IMG/VR virus record: IMGVR_UViG_3300037488_000375
Coordinates: 1-23,029 of that record
Length of the DNA: 23,029 bases
Reading direction: 5' to 3' (one strand)
Source of the DNA: a virus
Shown: piece after piece, positions 11,884 through 20,879 of the stretch
Position numbering within the stretch: position 1 is the stretch's first letter
How the letters are laid out: every line of letters begins with the position of its first letter
Notes under the pieces: generated by a model
What the model saw: the letters and a program-made list of their open reading frames with translations, nothing else
What the model was told of the DNA's origin: nothing
Databases searched by the model: none
Program-made: the position numbers and the translations under genes

Positions 11884-13779
11884 TTACTTCCCTAAGTTGT
11901 TCTGACTTTCGGCAGCTAACGCATTAGATATCTGCACGCCGCCCAGTGTCAATGGCGACCGCACCCCAAAGCCTGTCTCACCGCTCGTCATGCGCGCAGC
12001 GCCTTTAACCCCCCGCGCAAATGGATCGGTCAGCTTTTCACCTTTGGCTTTGCGTGCTAATGCTTTTTCCAACACGTCGGCTGCTACACGCGGGTCTAGC
12101 ATTTCTGCCGCTAGTTCTAGCGCCGCCTTTTCGTTAATCTTGCCCTGCAAACGATCAATAATTGTGTTTGCGATAGTAGCTAGTTTGCTAAAAAACGCAG
12201 GGGATTTAGCCAACTCTGCTGCGGGGATAGCTTTACCGCCCGCCGCGCCAGCTTTGGCTTGCGAAGTAAACTCAGCCTCTCGCGCCAAATCCTTGCGGAT
12301 GTTTTCAACAATAGCGGCCTGTTGAGGGGTTAAAACGTCTGTTAGTTGAGTAAACCGGCTTTCGCCCGTCGACCGCTTTATTGTCCCCGGCGCATTTCTT
12401 ACCGCTTCCGAGAAAGCGCCCGCGCGTTCGCCTACCGCTGTTTCAACCGCTGGCTTTAGCTTACCTTCAAGATACTGCCCAACCTGCATGATGTTGATAG
12501 GTTTGCTTGCTTGCGCGAAAGTTTCTTGCGCCGTGCGGTAGCCTGGCACAGCGTCAGTCAGCAGCTCACGAACATCGCGCAGCTTACCTCTAATAAACTT
12601 GGTGTCTTCTTTAGCAAGCCGCGTTTTAATGCCGTCGATCACAGACACAATCTCGCCTGCATCCGACCGCAAAGTACCTGTCTTACTATCGGCGATTAGA
12701 TCGTTGCGAATCTGCCGCATCTCACGCACCAACTCACGGTTGCCTGGGTTTTTGGCAATCAAATCATCTAACACAGGAATGACGCCGCTAACATCAACGG
12801 TGCCTTGTTTAGCTGCTGTGTATAACGGCGTGCTTACCTTGGAGCGCGCGCGTTCTGCAGCAGCCATCGCCGCTTCATCTTGCGCTATAGGTGATAGCGC
12901 TCGTTCGCGCGCCGCTTTGTTAGCGGCATCACGTTCGCGGTATGCTGTGGTCATACGATCTGCAACTTCAGCTTGCAAGGCCGCGTATCTTGTTGACCCT
13001 ACCGGTGCAGCAGCAACACCCGCTGTTGGCATCCCGCCCGCCACGTATTGATCGTAATTGCGCAGCGCGTTTACGATAGCTTGGCCTCTACCTTCAGCGG
13101 CATCAACCAATGCGGCAAATTTAGGGTTAGCAACGCGGCCTAGATAGTTTGTCGTTGCGCCGCCTACCTTACCGCCAAACTCAATCGTCGGAGATATCAG
13201 CGAAAATGGGTCGGTACGACGTGCGCCAGTCTGCAACATTGATGCTGCTTGGCTTAGAGGCGCCGATACAGCGGGCGCTACTTTAGCCGTAGCTTTAGCA
13301 CCCATTTTAGCTAAGCCTGCGCCGCCACTTAATAAAAGCGACAGATCGGAAATAGCTGTGACGGGTTGCTCGGCAAGCGTTCGCTTTATAGCGTCAAAGC
13401 TGCCATATTTGTTTGCGTACTCTCCGCCTACTGTACGCGCCACATTAGTTGCACGTTGCGCTGCTTCAGGATTGTTGTCCAGCGAATCAATAAAATCCCG
13501 TGCTTGCTTGGGTATGCTCATGCGCAGCGTACCGGCGGCCAAATCTAATATGCCTGTAAGCGTCTGCGCTGGGTTTTCAACAGCTTCTATTAAACCTGAA
13601 ACTTGCTTTTTTAAGTCGCCAGGCGCGCTAAAAACCGCTTCCATAGGCACATCAATTAAGTCGTACCGACGACGCGCAGCAGGTACACCTTCGTCTTGCG
13701 GCGCGGGCGCTACAGGAGTAGCCGTAGATACGTCAAAACCAGCGCCCGCTGGTTTTGCTGTAGCAAGGTCAAAGGCCAT
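11884..13779 (-). CDS. Presumed ejection / internal virion protein (P22 gp16 position)
   Basis: 631 residues, Ala-rich and largely helical. The start [25 protein letters not shown] is an unstructured, repeat-like N-terminus (FDLATAKPA / FDVSTATPV) known from large virion proteins of aquatic podoviruses. A hydrophobic stretch near 145-180 ([19 protein letters not shown]) could insert in a membrane during DNA delivery. The order fibre, cupin, DNA-transfer protein, 570-residue protein, this one, then spike copies P22 genes 7-20-16-9, so I assign it by synteny as an ejection protein forming part of the trans-envelope channel. No lytic transglycosylase motif is seen. Confidence 0.65.
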
Positions 13780-15491
13780 TATTTAACCTCTTCAAACTGT
13801 TTGCCATCAGGGCTGACATACGCGCGGTTGCCGTCTTTGTCCGTATGTAGCGTCCAACCCTTACTATTCTTTGCTGGCGTTTTGTCGCGCGGGCCCGTCT
13901 TAAGTATGGGTGAAACCGTTACAGGTTCAGTGCTAATGCCTGTCCCTTCAATCGCTGATTTAGGAATGGTCTTTGAGCGTGCGTTCCATTTATCTGCGGT
14001 CGCAGTAGCAGCTTTATGGGCAAGTTCGGCCAGACGCTTGAGCGAAGTTGCTTCATACGTAATTTGACCTGCTTTAGCCCGCTCCAAAAACTCACGGTCT
14101 TTATCGGTAAAGCCCTGCCCAGAGCCTAGACCGGACGACTTAATCGCACCAAGGGTGCTATCCGCCAAAGAGGATAGGAGGACTTCAGTATTGGTAATAG
14201 CTTCGCTGTCGCTGCCGCCGCCCAAACGAAGAAACTTGGACATTTGCAGCTTGATGTTTGCAGCCGAACCGGTAATAACTTGACCGCTTTGCAACAGGCC
14301 TAGAATGCGGTTTGCCGTGTTCGCTGCTTCAGGCGCGCGTTCTGCGGCGTCCATTAACGCAACATCTTTATCCGCAATACCACCTGCAAATTTTTCGCCG
14401 TATTTCTTCTCTGTGGACAGCCCAACAGTAAGCGTGGTGCCCTTACCTTTTTCAGCGCCCGCAATCATTCGCTCAAGCCCCGCAATCTCTTCCTTAATTG
14501 CTGGCGTTTGTGGTTGCTTACGCAAATTAGCTATGTCTTGTCTAGCCCGCTGAACGTTAGCAAAATCGCCAGTATATTGCCTAGACTTAATTTGATTTTC
14601 AAATCGCTGTTGCAGTATTTTGGCTGTTTCTTTTGCTCTAGGGTCACGCGAACGAAGCAATTCCGCAACGCCTGGCGCCAAAGGTGTATTTTCGGCGGAC
14701 ACCGTAACACCGGCTTCCGGCGGTGCTGTTGTGACCGCAGACGTTGCTGCTGGTGCGGCGGCATGTGTCATCTCACTACCTGTTGCAGCACTTGGCTGAC
14801 CGCGTGTAGAAATAAACTCTCCCTTCGACATTACTTTTGCGTCAGGGTCGTTTATCACCTTATCCATTAAATAGTCAGCATACGCGGCTTCATCTTCACC
14901 GGCTGCCGACTTCATTAGCGCATCTGGCGACGCTAATTGTGAGATTAATTTTTGTTGAAACGCAGGAAAATCCTCGTCGTTGTACGGCATCATGCGCAAG
15001 ATATTTTCGGCGGCTTCGTCCGAAATAGTTTTGTTAGCGCGGGATTCATACAGCATATCAATAGCGGCTTGCCGATTAGGAAAGCTGCTAATCATTCTAA
15101 TGGCGTCTTCACGACGCGCTTTATCCAAATCATAGCCGCGCTTAGCACGTTGCGATTCCAAATCTTTTATTTGCGCGGCGCGATAATCAGCCTCGCCTCG
15201 CGCTTTGCGGCGATCGTCAATTTGTTTAGCCAGTGCTAAACCCTGCGCGCCAAACTGCGTAGCTAAGTGGTTTAAGTTTATATCGTCGTCAAGGTTTGGT
15301 GAGCTTGCCAACCACTGCGTCATCGCATTTTTGTTACGCGACTCATCTGCAAACTCTTTCATCTTGAGCATGTTCATGAATTGCGTCTGCTGCGCACCTT
15401 GCAGTTCGGCTGCGCGCGCGGCGTGCACTAGCGGTGATTCGACTTGAATCGGCTTAATACTAAGCGCTATGCTTGGGTCAATTTGGGCCAT
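13779..15491 (-). CDS. Presumed ejection / internal virion protein (P22 gp20 position)
   Basis: 570 residues. The N-terminal 200 residues are charged helix (ELQGAQQTQFMNMLKMKEFAD, QIDDRRKARGEADYRAAQIKD), consistent with coiled coil; a low-complexity Ala/Thr/Pro linker follows (about 240-275); the C-terminal third has a conserved-looking helical part (GSAANIKLQMSKFLRLGG ... FTDKDREFLERAKAG). Such two-part helical proteins are the usual middle ejection proteins of P22-like phages. The assignment rests on gene order, size and composition, not on a unique motif. The stop overlaps the next start as TAATG. Confidence 0.65.
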   Translation of the reverse strand: MAQIDPSIALSIKPIQVESPLVHAARAAELQGAQQTQFMNMLKMKEFADESRNKNAMTQWLASSPNLDDDINLNHLATQFGAQGLALAKQIDDRRKARGEADYRAAQIKDLESQRAKRGYDLDKARREDAIRMISSFPNRQAAIDMLYESRANKTISDEAAENILRMMPYNDEDFPAFQQKLISQLASPDALMKSAAGEDEAAYADYLMDKVINDPDAKVMSKGEFISTRGQPSAATGSEMTHAAAPAATSAVTTAPPEAGVTVSAENTPLAPGVAELLRSRDPRAKETAKILQQRFENQIKSRQYTGDFANVQRARQDIANLRKQPQTPAIKEEIAGLERMIAGAEKGKGTTLTVGLSTEKKYGEKFAGGIADKDVALMDAAERAPEAANTANRILGLLQSGQVITGSAANIKLQMSKFLRLGGGSDSEAITNTEVLLSSLADSTLGAIKSSGLGSGQGFTDKDREFLERAKAGQITYEATSLKRLAELAHKAATATADKWNARSKTIPKSAIEGTGISTEPVTVSPILKTGPRDKTPAKNSKGWTLHTDKDGNRAYVSPDGKQFEEVK

Positions 15492-16169: not shown

Positions 16170-16693
16170 GTTGTTTCTCCTTTTGCTTCTAGCTGAAGCA
16201 ACTCATCCATAGTGCCAATTAAATTCATATCGCCGTACGTTGGCGCAATAACTTCATGCTCAATTTGCGCTAGGTCGTCTTCTGACCCAAAAGCAGTTAA
16301 GTGAACCGTAGTCCACAACGTGTCTTCCTCTGCGTACACCGCGCGTTTTAGCCCGACTTCAGATACAAACGTACACGGCGCTTCCAACTGTTTCTCACCA
16401 AACTCAGTAAACACCCGCACTTTTCCTTTACTAATAAAGTTCAAATGCTGATGCCGATGTATTTTGCCGATGATAACGGTGCCTTTGGGGATAAACATCT
16501 CTCTTGCATACGCATGGCACCCGAACGTGTCATCTTTAGGGGTGAAGTAATGCGTAAGTTTGCAATCCTCAAGCGTAGACTCTACTGCGCCGGAGTCTAT
16601 AAGCGCCTGCAGCCCAGTCTGCACCGCCATTACGTCTTCGCGGAACTTTACTTTTGTTTCAGTATTCGCAAGATCGTTCACATCACCACCCAT
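16166..16693 (-). CDS. Cupin-like protein in the tail operon
   Basis: 175 residues as drawn from ATG 16693. A GTG at 16681 (giving MNDLANTETK...) forms a GTGA overlap with the upstream stop and may be the true start; neither has a clear ribosome binding site. The core has the cupin pattern: GKIHRHQHLNFISKG (H79, H81, H83) with a later KQLEAPCTFVSEVG strand pair and TVHLT at the C-terminal side. The histidines could bind a metal ion. I recognise the protein as a conserved companion of structural genes in aquatic podoviruses; it lies where P22 has gene 14. It may be a virion part or a small sugar-binding or assembly factor, unproven. Confidence 0.75.
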   Translation of the reverse strand: MGGDVNDLANTETKVKFREDVMAVQTGLQALIDSGAVESTLEDCKLTHYFTPKDDTFGCHAYAREMFIPKGTVIIGKIHRHQHLNFISKGKVRVFTEFGEKQLEAPCTFVSEVGLKRAVYAEEDTLWTTVHLTAFGSEDDLAQIEHEVIAPTYGDMNLIGTMDELLQLEAKGETT

Positions 16694-18171
16694 CGTGAGC
16701 CGCTGGCTACTGTCACCGTCGTGCCGCTCGCCACCGTAACCGGCCCGGCTGACATGCCCGACGTACCTGCTGCAATGGTATAGCTGACATCAATCGTTAG
16801 ATTATTGACAAATATGCCATTGCCCGCTATGAAATGCTCAGATGTTAATTCACCCGTGCTGGGTTTGTATAGTAATTTTGCATTGCTGGTATAGATGGTC
16901 GACAACGCGCCGGAGGTGGCTGCCGCAAAGGTCGGGTAGACATTCGTTGCGGTTGTGGTGTCGTTTGTGATCGTCGCGCCCGAGCCGCTGGCTACCGCCC
17001 AGACAGCCGTCGTGCCATTCGAGGTCAGAACGTAGTTGTTCGCCCCAATCGGCAGGCGGGTCGAGCTGTTGGCCCCGTTGCCAATGATTAGGTCGCCCGT
17101 GCTGGTAACTGGCGACAAGGCATTAAACGCTGCGCTGGCAGTTGTTTGGCCTGTACCGCCGTTAGCAATCGGCAGCGTACCCGTCACTTGGGTAGTCAGG
17201 TCAACCCCAGTCAGCGTGCCACCGAGTGTCAGGCTGCCGCTGGACGTGACCGTGCCGGACAGGCTGATGCCGTTGACCGTGCCGGTGCCGGAGACGCTGG
17301 TGACCGTGCCCACGTACTGATCGTTGGAGGTGATGGTGAAGTTCGGATACGTGCCGGTGACGCTGGTCGTACCTGCGCCTGTCAGCGATACGATCTGGTC
17401 GGGTGCGGTGTTGGTGACGGTAAAGCTGGGGTATGTGCCTGTCACGCTCATACCCGTGCCAGCCGCTATGGAAACGACTTGGTCTGGTGCGGTATTAGTT
17501 ACGGTAAAGCTGGGGTAAGTGCCTGACGTGCTAATGCCTGTGCCACCAGTAAGTGACACCACTTGATCAGGCGCCGTATTTGTAATGGTAAAGCTAGGGT
17601 ACGTGCCCGAGGTGCTGATGCCTGTGCCGCCGGTCAGCGACACCACCTGATCTGGCGCCGAATTATCAATCGTGACCGCCACCGAGCCGTTATAGGTTGT
17701 ACCAACGCTGTACGAAATGCCAGTACCCGCCGTCAACGCATTGGCTACACTGCCTGCTTGGCCGGTTGTGTTTTGGTTAAGCGTTGGCACGTCGGCAACC
17801 TGAATGGCGCTTAAAGCCGCGTTGGTGCCGTTTGAGCGCAGGTAGTAGCCTGACGTCTGCGTGCCTGTTAGCGCGGTAATGGCGGCTGCTGCCGTAGTCT
17901 GGCCTGTGCCACCGTTATCGACATCCAACGTGCCTGCCAGCGTGATGGTGCCTGATGTTGTGACAGGGCCGCCTGAAGTCGTTAGGCCTGTCGTGCCGCC
18001 GGAGACATTGACCGAAGTGACCGTGCCTGACCCGCCACCACCGCCGGAGTTGGCTTTGTTCAGCAGGTTTAGGAAGAACCGATACCAGTCACGCGACACC
18101 ATCCCCGTCCGGTCGTCGGTAATCGGCGACTGGTTCTTGGGTATCTGCGGTTCGTTATCGGCGTTAGGCAT
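16678..18171 (-). CDS. Tail fibre with 28-residue tandem repeats (P22 gp26 needle position)
   Basis: 497 residues. N-terminus: MPNADNEPQIPKNQSPITDDR then GMVSRDWYRFFLNLLNKA, a typical fibre attachment segment, and a poly-Gly linker. The shaft is Gly/Thr/Ser-rich with two DNGGTGQTTAAAA / ANGGTGQTTASAA phrases and four 28-residue repeats (APDQVVSLTGGTG...). The tip (about 455-497) has VSYTIAAGTSGMSAGPVTV and ends GSRWVVM. It probably forms a long trimeric beta-fibre. It follows the gp10-like gene by an eight-base overlap, exactly where P22 carries its tail needle gene 26, so it may close the tail and also bind the host. Confidence 0.85.
   Translation of the reverse strand: MPNADNEPQIPKNQSPITDDRTGMVSRDWYRFFLNLLNKANSGGGGGSGTVTSVNVSGGTTGLTTSGGPVTTSGTITLAGTLDVDNGGTGQTTAAAAITALTGTQTSGYYLRSNGTNAALSAIQVADVPTLNQNTTGQAGSVANALTAGTGISYSVGTTYNGSVAVTIDNSAPDQVVSLTGGTGISTSGTYPSFTITNTAPDQVVSLTGGTGISTSGTYPSFTVTNTAPDQVVSIAAGTGMSVTGTYPSFTVTNTAPDQIVSLTGAGTTSVTGTYPNFTITSNDQYVGTVTSVSGTGTVNGISLSGTVTSSGSLTLGGTLTGVDLTTQVTGTLPIANGGTGQTTASAAFNALSPVTSTGDLIIGNGANSSTRLPIGANNYVLTSNGTTAVWAVASGSGATITNDTTTATNVYPTFAAATSGALSTIYTSNAKLLYKPSTGELTSEHFIAGNGIFVNNLTIDVSYTIAAGTSGMSAGPVTVASGTTVTVASGSRWVVM
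17323..17658 (-). repeat. Four in-frame 84-bp tandem repeats in the tail fibre gene
   Basis: Units on the minus strand: 17658-17575, 17574-17491, 17490-17407, 17406-17323, each 28 codons starting APDQ(V/I)VS and ending TYP(S/N)FT(I/V)T. Units 1 and 2 are nearly identical in protein, unit 3 changes GGTGIST to AAGTGMSV, unit 4 changes it to GAGTTSV. At DNA level they differ mostly at third positions, so the array is old enough to have drifted but keeps its period and frame. Confidence 0.9.
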
Positions 18172-19597
18172 TGGTGCCGGTCAACACTAACTCGGCACCC
18201 ATGATGGCGATCTTGACGGGGTCGGTGCCGGACACCTCGTAGACACGGTCGCGCAGCTTTTCGGTCATGCCCAGCCGCCGCCAGAAGGCACGGTAGCCGT
18301 AGTTGCCGATCTTGCCCATGCCCGTCCAATGCTCGTTTGACCAGGTGTGGCCACCGTCATCCGACCAGCGCATGATGACCTGCGGGTCGTTGCCTTGGCC
18401 GGTGATCAGACCGACACCTGTCTCGCATTCGAGCTGCAGCGTGTGCTGAGCGGTACGCTTTAAGTTGTTCTGGCCGGTGGGCAGCGCCCGCCACGACCGC
18501 AGCCACTTCTGTGGCAGGTTGTCGTCAGCAAACACGTCCAAGTCGTACGCGTAAATCTTGCCGTTCTGGAAGTCACCAACGACGACTTCGTTGTTGTAGA
18601 ACATCTGGCAGTTGGCACGGTGGCGGATAAAGTCACCGTTAGCAAAGCCTGCACGCTCATGCCATGCGCCGGTGGCTACGTCAAACACCCAAGTTTTCTG
18701 GGCGGTCGGAAAGCTCAGCACGTAAAAGGCATGGCCGTCTTGCTGATAGGTAAACCCAATAGCGTCTGAAATCGTGCCGTAGCTCTGGATAGCAAATTCA
18801 ACCGCATGGGTTGAGATGCGCTGGCCGGTATAGCCTTGGGCACGGAACACCACGCCTTGGCCACGGGCATCTGCCCCAAGCCAGAATAGCGAGTTGTCCA
18901 TCTTGGCAACCGAGTAAGTAGCTGCGCAGCCCAGCTCGTTGACAGCACCTTGGATGCGAGCCAACGGGAAGGGTGAGGTGCCTGCGTTGTACCAGACCTC
19001 AACCGACTGGGTGCCAAACAGCCAGACCTCGCGGTGGTCGACAAACAGCGACACCAAGTTGTCCGGCATACCTTCGGCGCTGGCAAAGCTCAACGGGTCA
19101 AGCTGCGTGCCATCCAGCAGCTCAGACACCCAAAACTTCTGGGAGTTAGGCTCCTGGAAGATAAAGTATCCATCTAAATAGCCGACTGTTACCGCGCCGG
19201 GAAAGTCAACGTCCGTGATCTCGGCGTACGCTTCGGTCGACGCGTCGTAGATAAACCCTTCAGGGTTAGCCGCGATGAAGAGCTGCGTGCCATTGTCGAC
19301 CATCGACACAGGCCCGGTGCCCGACACGCCGCCAATCTGGGTGACCGTCCAGTTGGTGTCAACCCGATACAGCCGAGAGCCTGACACCACGTAGCCATAG
19401 CCGCCGTACGACCACAGGCCGCGGATGGGGCCAGTACCGACGGTGGCCAATCGGCGTAAGCCTGGCGCGCGGTTCAGGTACGCAGGCTCGTTGCCTTCTG
19501 GCGACGGGGTAATTTCTGGGTACAGGTTGACCATACGTGCCGCCGCAGCGTTCAAGCTGCGCGCGACGTACGATTGACCTAAGATTGGCGTACGCAT
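18164..19597 (-). CDS. Packaged DNA stabilization protein, P22 gp10-like
   Basis: 477 residues, close to P22 gp10 in size (472). The start MRTPILGQSYVARSLNAAAARMVNLYPE is the hallmark of the Phage_stabilise family, and the remainder shows successive beta blades (GLWSYGGYGYVVSGSRLYRVD, SMVDNGTQLFIAANPEGFIYD, VWLFGTQSVEVWYNAG, TWVFDVATGAWHERAGF) as expected for its beta-propeller. In P22 the hexameric gp10 plugs the portal after packaging, between gp4 and the needle gp26. Its neighbours here are the gp4-like gene (before, with an endonuclease gene in between) and the fibre in needle position. Confidence 0.9.
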   Translation of the reverse strand: MRTPILGQSYVARSLNAAAARMVNLYPEITPSPEGNEPAYLNRAPGLRRLATVGTGPIRGLWSYGGYGYVVSGSRLYRVDTNWTVTQIGGVSGTGPVSMVDNGTQLFIAANPEGFIYDASTEAYAEITDVDFPGAVTVGYLDGYFIFQEPNSQKFWVSELLDGTQLDPLSFASAEGMPDNLVSLFVDHREVWLFGTQSVEVWYNAGTSPFPLARIQGAVNELGCAATYSVAKMDNSLFWLGADARGQGVVFRAQGYTGQRISTHAVEFAIQSYGTISDAIGFTYQQDGHAFYVLSFPTAQKTWVFDVATGAWHERAGFANGDFIRHRANCQMFYNNEVVVGDFQNGKIYAYDLDVFADDNLPQKWLRSWRALPTGQNNLKRTAQHTLQLECETGVGLITGQGNDPQVIMRWSDDGGHTWSNEHWTGMGKIGNYGYRAFWRRLGMTEKLRDRVYEVSGTDPVKIAIMGAELVLTGTNA

Positions 19598-19659
19598 AGC
19601 TTGTCCATAATTAAGTTTTCATGGTACGCTAAAACTTTACTGCACAACCTTTCAAATCT

Positions 19660-20154
19660 ATGGCTGACATAACTGCGGAATACGTAAGAACAATGCTTTC
19701 CTATAATCCTGAAACCGGCGTGTTTACCTGGCGGGTAAAACCTAATCGTCGCATTCGGGTGAATAGTGTGGCTGGATCTATCAGTGATACAGGTTACCGC
19801 ACAATTCGGCTTAAACGTCGTCCGTATAAAGCTAACCGTTTGGCGTGGCTTTATATGACGGGCGCGCATCCGAAACAGGTAATTGACCACATTGACGGAA
19901 ACCCTTTGAACAACGCGTTTAACAATCTTCGAGATGTGACTATTGCACAAAACGTGCAAAACCAAAAACGGGCGCATGTAAGAAATAAACATGGTTTTCT
20001 TGGGGTTTCGTGGCATATCGCAGGTAAATGCTGGCGCGCACGCATATGTGTTGACGGCAAACACATTCTTTTGGGGTACTTTAAAACCCCAGAAGAAGCG
20101 CATAACGCGTATTTGCAAGCCAAGCGTAAATATCATCTTACCTGTACCATTTAA
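19660..20154 (+). CDS. Free-standing HNH homing endonuclease with AP2 domain
   Basis: 164 residues. N-terminal NUMOD/HNH_3-like part: MLSYNPETGVFTWRV, GYRTIRLKRRPYKANRLAWLY, then the catalytic HNH core VIDHIDGNPLNNAFNNLR (H77, N84-N85, N89). The C-terminal AP2 DNA-binding domain spans about 112-155 (GFLGVSWHIAGKCWRARIC ... GYFKTPEEAHNAY). These enzymes cut a specific site in relatives that lack the gene and spread by repair. The gene sits alone on the plus strand between the leftward gp4-like and gp10-like genes, 62 and 14 bases away. It has no Shine-Dalgarno, and no good promoter is visible in the 62 bases before it. Confidence 0.95.
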   Translation: MADITAEYVRTMLSYNPETGVFTWRVKPNRRIRVNSVAGSISDTGYRTIRLKRRPYKANRLAWLYMTGAHPKQVIDHIDGNPLNNAFNNLRDVTIAQNVQNQKRAHVRNKHGFLGVSWHIAGKCWRARICVDGKHILLGYFKTPEEAHNAYLQAKRKYHLTCTI

Positions 20155-20168
20155 TAGTTGTCTATTTG

Positions 20169-20879
20169 TTAAAAATTGCCCGCGTAGATGTTGTAACGTT
20201 GCCGGTTAGCCACGATTGCATAAGGCATCGACATCACGTCATCTGGGTTGTTGATACGCTTCAGATTCCGCTTAGATGTCATTGCGATCCGCGTTACCTG
20301 CGGCATAGGCTCAACACCAAACTCGTTGGCAATTTCCATCGCCAAGTTGTATTTGAACGCCCGCAGGTAACCCGGCGGGAAGGACAGTACGGTGTTGAGC
20401 GTAGCTGGCTTATCCAGCTGTTGCACCGACACAAAATGCCATTCCAAAAGCCGTGTAGGCTTTGGATAGATGGTCATTGTGATGTCAGGAAACGTATTGT
20501 TGACGAACATGACCTGCGGATACGTGCTGGTCACGGTCTTAACCGCAATGCCATCGTACTGCTGCTGGTTGATCAGCTTAATGCCGTACGAGACGTTGGT
20601 CTGCGGGTCACGGAAATACGTGGCGTCGTCAATCAGAATAGGACGATTGCCGACAAAGTCGCCGGTCGGCCCTAACGTGCGGGTAATCGTGTCGGTTGGC
20701 CAGTTGAATATCTGGTCTTCCGTACAGAAAACGGCCAAACGCTCAGTGTTCCACGAATCAATCATCTGATTCATGGCAGTCAGCGCATCCTGCGCTGCTT
20801 GTGGGGAAGGCTCTTCACCTTCAGCCAGCTGGCCGATAAGCCGGAGGGCCGCTTTAATCTGGTCGAAGGCGGTTGCCAT
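20169..20879 (-). CDS. Head-tail adaptor, P22 gp4-like tail accessory factor
   Basis: 236 residues. The N-terminus (MATAFDQIKAALRLIGQLAEGEEPSPQAAQDALTAMNQMIDSW) and the YLRAFKYNLAMEIANEFG helix are characteristic of the P22 gp4 family (P22 gp4: 166 residues; many relatives are somewhat longer, as here). In P22 twelve copies assemble under the portal ring and gp10 docks on them. Position between coat and gp10 genes agrees. AAGGAG lies six bases ahead of ATG 20879. Confidence 0.85.
   Translation of the reverse strand: MATAFDQIKAALRLIGQLAEGEEPSPQAAQDALTAMNQMIDSWNTERLAVFCTEDQIFNWPTDTITRTLGPTGDFVGNRPILIDDATYFRDPQTNVSYGIKLINQQQYDGIAVKTVTSTYPQVMFVNNTFPDITMTIYPKPTRLLEWHFVSVQQLDKPATLNTVLSFPPGYLRAFKYNLAMEIANEFGVEPMPQVTRIAMTSKRNLKRINNPDDVMSMPYAIVANRQRYNIYAGNF

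Follow-up and report, generated by a model that had tools for sequence, protein, structure and literature searches.

Antisense homing endonuclease genes with a stop-free complement, a proposed ribosome bridge, between the gp4-like and gp10-like genes of phage late operons

How a mobile gene can lie against the direction of a tightly coupled phage operon, and be expressed there, is the question raised by an open reading frame at 19660-20154 (+) in an IMG/VR virus record of 23,029 bases, the whole of which is called the window here. The features of the locus are as follows, in window positions.

18164-19597, minus strand: gp10-like packaged-DNA stabilisation/head closure protein (PF11134; phrog_578, head closure Hc3), downstream in the late operon
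19579-20136, minus strand: late-strand open frame (185 aa counted from its ATG), complementary to the endonuclease gene in codon register, the proposed ribosome bridge
19598-20168, insert of 571 nt lying between the gp10 start codon and the gp4 stop codon, absent in most sampled relatives
19601-19606, plus strand: TTGTCC, putative -35-like element, common to the window and L004/L006
19622-19630, plus strand: TGGTACGCT, putative weak extended -10; L004/L006 have TGGTATACT in the same place
19660-20154, plus strand: HNH_3+AP2 homing endonuclease gene, 164 aa, ATG start, antisense to the late operon
20169-20879, minus strand: gp4-like head-tail adaptor (phrog_12985, weaker phrog_637 head-tail adaptor), upstream in the late operon

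The sequence-only reading had placed an HNH-AP2 gene on the plus strand between minus-strand gp4-like and gp10-like genes, and Pfam, PHROG and the ORF positions agree with this. The 185-aa open frame opposite the endonuclease was absent from that reading and is central to the account proposed here. We consider it likely that the locus carries a mobile antisense HNH-AP2 gene with its own promoter, the stop-free complement of which acts as a ribosome bridge; cutting, transcription and ribosome passage enter this account as predictions. With slightly less confidence, we think that two HNH architectures have both been shaped so that their opposite strand forms a stop-free, protein-less ribosome bridge that keeps translation of the operon continuous.

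The product of the plus-strand gene matches Pfam HNH_3 (E 6e-12, residues 56-99) and AP2 (E 6e-7, residues 115-158; 30.1 bits, under the curated cut-off of 33.3), and its best PHROG family is phrog_99, HNH endonuclease (E 4e-65). A profile built from 42 relatives matches I-HmuI (1u3e, E 2.6e-9) and also plant AP2 proteins. The AlphaFold2 model has a pLDDT of 93.3 and a pTM of 0.78. Foldseek by itself returned no PDB match for this model at E <= 0.001; when the Foldseek candidates were re-examined with VIA-align, the model aligned to 1u3e with a Z score of 8.3 over 92 residues at 2.7 Å. The HNH part comprises model residues 5-105 and is similar to 1u3e by sequence and fold, and residues about 104-164 match AP2 domains with Z scores of 6.0-8.0 for the four best VIA-align entries. 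Ten residues are invariant in the 42-sequence alignment, including D76, H77, L90, R91, N98, and N101, and N85 and N89 are conserved in at least 90% of the sequences; the catalytic Asp-His and Asn of the HNH domain are probably among these conserved residues. I-HmuI is an intron-encoded HNH homing endonuclease. The likeness to it is confined to the HNH part, whereas the gene in the window is free-standing and encodes a C-terminal AP2 domain. A location within an intron or intein is excluded, as the gene lies between the gp4 stop and the gp10 start and both neighbours align full-length to relatives. What lies at 19660-20154 (+) is a mobile homing endonuclease gene of the HNH-AP2 type, free-standing, with a product that would cut DNA. 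The gp4-like gene carries the annotation 'tail adaptor' in the relative DSL-LC05, and the available portion of the DSL-LC05 paper (PMC10611076) does not use the term HNH. Three large late proteins of the window (11884-13779, 13779-15491, and 16678-18171, all on the minus strand) had no PHROG match at E 0.001, and the latter two, which the Pfam scan covered, had no Pfam match either.

Relatives were collected with two gp10 queries (best 80 matches each) and an L115 query (likewise best 80). Junctions were counted as distinct when at least one base differed over the junction plus 60 bp, a definition under which near-copies remain, and as empty when at most 16 nt separated the first base of the gp4 stop from the gp10 start (12 nt in one earlier count). 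Among the matches listed, the gp10-sampled set held 127 distinct junctions, with 92 empty, 13 carrying HNH-AP2, 6 carrying NUMOD4-HNH and 16 carrying another gene; for the 12 with gp10 at least 85% identical to that of the window, again among the matches listed, the counts were 8 empty, 3 with another insert and 1 with HNH-AP2. The full set, made up of the gp10-sampled loci, loci from HNH queries and a genome scan, contained 337 loci, 268 with both flanks, and 215 distinct junctions, of which 95 were empty, 40 held HNH-AP2, 63 held NUMOD4-HNH (a label given by Pfam in three members and by tblastn in the remainder) and 17 held something else, among the matches listed. The sequence-only reading had proposed a search for relatives with directly adjacent gp4 and gp10 genes; these were found, and they place the hotspot in P22-type late operons precisely where the gp4 stop meets the gp10 start. 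In 68 of the 95 empty junctions of the full set the distance is 2 nt (TGATG or TAATG type overlap), and since the two genes overlap or almost touch at empty sites, translational coupling between them is implied.

Every HNH insert at the junction among the matches listed is antisense (103/103; 40 HNH-AP2 and 63 NUMOD4-HNH). In L008, a P22-type phage that is only distantly related, an HNH gene of this kind lies in sense between gp4-like and gp10 genes, indicating that the orientation is not dictated by the site. Away from the junction, HNH-AP2 relatives are mostly co-oriented with their neighbours: among 47 genes with both flanks scored, a count that includes near-copies, 26 were same/same, 13 mixed and 8 opposite/opposite. 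The longest ORF of the non-HNH inserts is on the sense strand in all 16 examined. With sense-ORF ends searched from -25 to +20 of the A of gp10, the longest sense ORF ending near gp10 stops at -6 to +1 of this A in the 17 non-HNH inserts; in 14 of them the same ORF starts at -44 to +12 of the gp4 stop and thus spans the insert, and in the other three (L209, L214, and L223) the ORF adjoining gp10 is the last of several.

Comparison of near-identical inserts shows that the element is mobile with short co-converted flanks, as judged from sequence identity. The inserts of L144 and L147 are 99-100% identical, and their flanks are 53-86% identical except for the adjoining 100 bp, at 88% and 94%. The pairs L133/L138 and L003/L118 have the same pattern, and L003/L119 has a sharp drop in identity on the gp10 side, from 100% to 64%. 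When identity over the last 150 bp is set against the 500-bp mean, L144/L147 show an excess of 7 points on the gp4 side and 15 points on the gp10 side; by the same measure, empty-site pairs show +2.4 (sd 3.4, n 189) for gp4 and +3.5 (sd 3.5, n 392, maximum 13.1) for gp10. In L144/L147, the restriction of raised identity to the 100 bp adjoining the junction fits an endonuclease target there. The window and its closest relative among the matches listed (L038, gp10 99% identical), which has a different insert of 160 nt, share flanks of mostly 90-100% identity, dropping to 70% and 84% in the 50-bp bins that adjoin the junction. This dip fits local exchange, yet it is weaker evidence than L144/L147, as identity is 76-89% in six further 50-bp bins and, for the last gp4 bin, also low in the other comparisons of the window (62-76%). 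The tree of junction HNH-AP2 copies needs 5 changes and may be compatible with a single origin; the junction copies are related to one another, so their counts are not independent events. The sequence-only reading had held that presence of the gene in all relatives, under strong purifying selection and with no cutting activity, would speak against a homing endonuclease. Presence in all relatives is not what is found, since 92 of the 127 gp10-sampled junctions are empty among the matches listed. Purifying selection is indeed strong, with dN/dS between HNH genes of 0.06-0.21 in 14 of 16 chosen pairs (dS is saturated in the other two), and this is expected for an active homing endonuclease.

The same reading had described the gene as having neither a clear promoter nor a Shine-Dalgarno sequence, and for the window copy this stands. 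A sigma-70 consensus scan of 19400-20400 gave no plus-strand promoter, its sole match being on the minus strand, and no Shine-Dalgarno sequence is visible before the endonuclease ATG. The window leader contains TTGTCC-18-TACGCT at 19601-19630, with a weak extended -10-like element recognised only via relatives; L004 has TTGTCC and TATACT at the same position, plus an SD-like GAGG. In relatives, a conserved putative extended -10 directly precedes the gene. Long early antisense transcription of the late region, which the same reading had offered as an expression path, is not called for by any result. One HNH-AP2 clade has the block ATGGTAAACT at -17..-8 of the start codon, and pairwise identity of its core among 10 representatives is 0.85, compared with 0.38 at 4-fold sites and 0.46 in the part of the leader before the block. 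The block reads as an extended -10 (TGGTAAACT) near enough to the ATG for the transcript to be leaderless. The motif TGNTANNNT occurs in 30/38 junction HNH-AP2 genes versus 5/18 sense-oriented ones (background 0.042 per 60 nt), at positions fixed within clades, and SD-like 4-mers have the reverse trend (9/38 versus 11/18). In NUMOD4-HNH genes, TGNTATANT lies at exactly -36 or -35 in 43/61 (background 0.0028 per 60 nt), and an SD-like 4-mer at most 16 nt from the start used is present in 48/63. Where another gene stands between gp10 and the HNH gene, the TGNTATANT motif stays with the HNH gene in 9/11. The conserved local motif of the lineage may be a promoter. When single-leader -10 scores were compared with shuffles, 0 of 15 representative leaders passed 0.05 (best 0.052, combined P 0.069). 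A target-like operator in the leader, as for I-TevI, was also considered and rejected: in 18 leaders and both directions, 1 of 36 tests fell below 0.05 (0.047, L123).

Folding suggests a hairpin that would hide the Shine-Dalgarno sequence in NUMOD4-HNH leaders. In 38 of these, the mean unpaired value of the Shine-Dalgarno sequence is 0.09 in read-through RNA, 0.63 in RNA starting at the promoter and 0.33 with shuffled upstream sequence. For this hairpin there are 0 compensatory changes, every shuffle scores equally high, and RNAalifold gives no pair. In L115-type NUMOD4-HNH leaders, CTCC just past the -10 can pair with the GGAG Shine-Dalgarno, a pairing that would silence read-through transcripts and spare those from the gene's own promoter. 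Among the six HNH-AP2 leaders with a Shine-Dalgarno sequence, it is hidden beyond shuffles in L061 and L107, but not in the other four.

In the complement frame that is codon-aligned with the HNH gene, stop codons arise solely from TTA, CTA, and TCA codons of the endonuclease. The codon, frame and leader tests covered 99 of the 103 HNH inserts, omitting a remnant (L102), a copy with a broken endonuclease (L154) and two copies with an uncertain start (L112 and L103, with 1 against 11.5 and 1 against 4.8 expected of these codons). Codons were counted in 20 HNH-AP2 and 38 NUMOD4-HNH representatives (copies of equal length and at least 85% identity merged), and the expectation was taken from each gene's own third-base composition. 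The 20 antisense HNH-AP2 genes contain 2 TTA, CTA, and TCA codons where 113.4 are expected (Poisson P about 4e-46, ignoring kinship), and the 38 antisense NUMOD4-HNH genes contain 1 where 262.3 are expected (P about 3e-112, ignoring kinship). The corresponding values are 137 versus 143.1 in 18 sense-oriented HNH-AP2 genes and 569 versus 621.2 in 64 gp10 genes of the same phages. The window endonuclease has none of the three codons. The depletion is found in the aligned complement frame only, with 0.1 (HNH-AP2) and 0.03 (NUMOD4-HNH) stops per gene, compared with 5-12 in the other two frames. Leu/Ser columns have undergone at least 54 (HNH-AP2) and 72 (NUMOD4-HNH) synonymous changes, indicating ongoing selection rather than mere inheritance. 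The exceptions, 4 in 99 copies, each consist of one codon, located at 156 of 160 in three cases and at 179 of 180 in the fourth, all within the last 5 codons of the endonuclease at the gp4 edge. A first null based on the family's own codon usage gave P values of 0.07 and 0.085; since the three codons are already missing from that usage, this null carried no information, the sense-oriented controls likewise exceeded it (P 0.03), and the third-base expectation was used instead. A junction copy cut by a contig end (L156) has 1 versus 8.6 expected, and its frame ends as ATGA on gp10. The sense copy of L008 is not depleted (4 versus 5.3). Of the nine antisense HNH-AP2 genes at other sites, six are without marked depletion (L015, L020, L026, L174, a Vibrio phage, and Kapi1), and the others have 0 versus 7.0 (L025, where the complement frame ends 3 nt before the next ORF), 1 versus 7.1 (L125) and 2 versus 5.8 (L011).

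In the window the ATG of the complement frame is found 35 nt downstream of where the gp4 stop begins; the frame's own stop starts 16 nt past the A of the gp10 start, giving an overlap of 19 nt with gp10. A frame covering the entire HNH gene is present in 95 of 99 copies, and 94 of these 95 have an in-frame start codon at -50 to +40 of the gp4 stop, which is ATG in 91. In 84 of the 95 there is no gene between HNH and gp10; all 84 end at -20..+16 of the A of gp10, a closeness partly forced by leaders of at most 62 nt, and 62 of them end as ATGA. The ATGA comes from the usual Met-Lys start of gp10, but being in the matching frame does not; leader length is 2 mod 3 in 9 of 11 distinct lengths (P 0.0014 if independent). 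In the 11 covering frames followed by an intervening ORF, the start of this ORF falls between 1 nt upstream and 30 nt downstream of the position where the bridge stop begins. The remnant in L102 has lost most of the endonuclease and kept TGATG...ATGA with a 45-codon frame, and in L154 the endonuclease frame is broken, yet a 205-codon sense frame is present. A strict SD 4-mer precedes the bridge ATG in only 3 of 91, so ribosome entry would need re-initiation.

These observations can be joined in the following model. The probable targets of the endonuclease are insert-free phages, which would be cut at the gp4/gp10 junction or close to it, and the gene would then be copied in with short flanking tracts. 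Once there, the antisense gene would be transcribed from a small extended -10 promoter of its own, situated at the gp10 end. At empty sites translation of gp4 and gp10 is probably coupled through TGATG or TAATG, and selection on the element keeps its complement stop-free in the single frame that matches the endonuclease codon for codon. Read along the late mRNA, that frame extends from near the gp4 stop to the gp10 start; in the simplest mechanism, ribosomes leaving gp4 would go on through the insert and restart at gp10, as they likely do at empty sites. The stop-free complement best explains why the late operon tolerates the insert. Points against this account include the weak -10 of the window (TACGCT), the single-leader scores that do not pass their shuffles, the scarcity of strict SD 4-mers at bridge ATGs, the sense copy of L008 and the mixed depletion at other sites.

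That the codon depletion is a functionless by-product of codon usage or base composition has practically no probability, and nothing was found in its favour: the expectation already includes third-base composition, GTA, ATA, GCA, CCA, ACA, GGA, and CGA are freely used in the antisense HNH genes, gp10 and the sense-oriented HNH-AP2 genes use TTA, CTA, and TCA about as expected, and the Poisson values above are extreme even as figures that ignore kinship. It is also quite improbable that the two strands hold two genes and that the late-strand frame, 185 aa long in the window, has a functional protein as its product. In nearly all copies the frame is open and it is well positioned for coupled translation, and in 118 NUMOD4-HNH pairs the amino acid identity of the complement is 0.350, slightly above the null of 0.321, so that a weak effect at the protein level is possible there. 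In 404 deep HNH-AP2 pairs, however, identity is 0.265 compared with 0.255 when synonymous codons are resampled, and the 4-fold sites of the endonuclease, which are the first positions of the other frame, agree in just 0.38 of comparisons between representatives. Amino acid selection in both frames, which would mark an overprinted pair, is thus not seen for HNH-AP2; what is conserved in the complement frame is openness, far more than sequence, and a protein is not clearly conserved.

Another proposal, which we regard as unlikely, is that the open complement prevents Rho-type polarity, with ribosomes shielding the late mRNA, rather than coupling gp10 initiation. Such shielding needs translation in one frame only, as observed, and the 17 non-HNH inserts also have a sense ORF ending at gp10; the exact ATGA/TAATG geometry at the gp10 start, with 62 of 84 frames ending as ATGA, and the leader lengths modulo 3 favour coupling. 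Polarity protection is a close variant of the bridge, and coupling and polarity may both be at work. There is perhaps a modest chance that the endonuclease gene of the window is weakly expressed and decaying, with its homing cycle almost over, a reading compatible with the bridge. Its -10 is weak and it has no Shine-Dalgarno sequence where L004 has both, and the window-L004 dN/dS of 0.21 is the highest of the 14 finite values. Decay is harder to reconcile with an intact 164-aa frame, the presence of all ten invariant residues, a confident model and the lack of TTA, CTA, and TCA codons.

The ribosome-bridge account can be compared with known phage systems. HNH-AP2 or IPA-HNH phage homing endonucleases, with N-terminal HNH and C-terminal AP2 domains, are established, in a paper the title of which places nuclease genes at boundaries of exchange (PMC10448857). 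Those genes have the same architecture as the window gene, but the bridging arrangement was not found in the available portion of that paper, where the word 'antisense' has 0 occurrences. According to the accessible parts of PMC2988022, the homing endonuclease genes of T4 are all in sense except segD, which is antisense to genes 23/24 and for which no promoter was identified, and antisense transcripts are mentioned among the consequences that invasion by endonuclease genes may have. Like the window gene, segD is free-standing and antisense to late head genes, but it belongs to the GIY-YIG family (PMC2988022); it has 9 TTA, CTA, or TCA codons in 223. T4 mobE and other sense homing endonuclease genes overlap the upstream gene as UAAUGA, suggestive of translational coupling, as described in the accessible parts of the same paper; there the endonuclease itself is coupled in sense, whereas at gp4/gp10 its complement would be. 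No report of a stop-free complementary bridge was found in open-licence full-text literature, as represented mostly by titles and the beginnings of abstracts.

If correct, the bridge would be a new route by which a mobile gene becomes harmless to its host, and a case in which a reading frame is selected for readability and not for an encoded product. It would suggest, in a form open to testing, how mobile genes persist within phage operons that are tightly coupled, and show why antisense orientation need not damage an operon. A naturally occurring open frame that is selected although it yields no product would also be a confounder for studies of antisense ORFs and new genes. The hotspot itself provides a large natural series of empty sites, HNH-AP2 and NUMOD4-HNH inserts, other genes and remnants in which the homing life cycle can be followed.

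Several further occupants of the junction were observed. The junction of L317 (1762 nt) contains HNH-AP2 and NUMOD4-HNH genes together, both antisense, with a sense ORF in between. At the same junction, L038 (1994-2155) and L044 carry a 53-aa sense ORF that has a TAATG start, ends as GTGA on gp10 and has no Pfam or PHROG match. HNH-AP2 genes antisense to their neighbours also occur in other phages, at 2983-3480 of L341 (Vibrio phage 1.242.O) and 2977-3477 of L340 (Kapi1). Sense inserts with the common start M..V.IS.LP.AT... are present at the junctions of L071, L209, L214, L216, L223, L232, L245, and L246; in L071, the one member for which the family comparison was made, the insert corresponds to phrog_6002, a virion structural protein.
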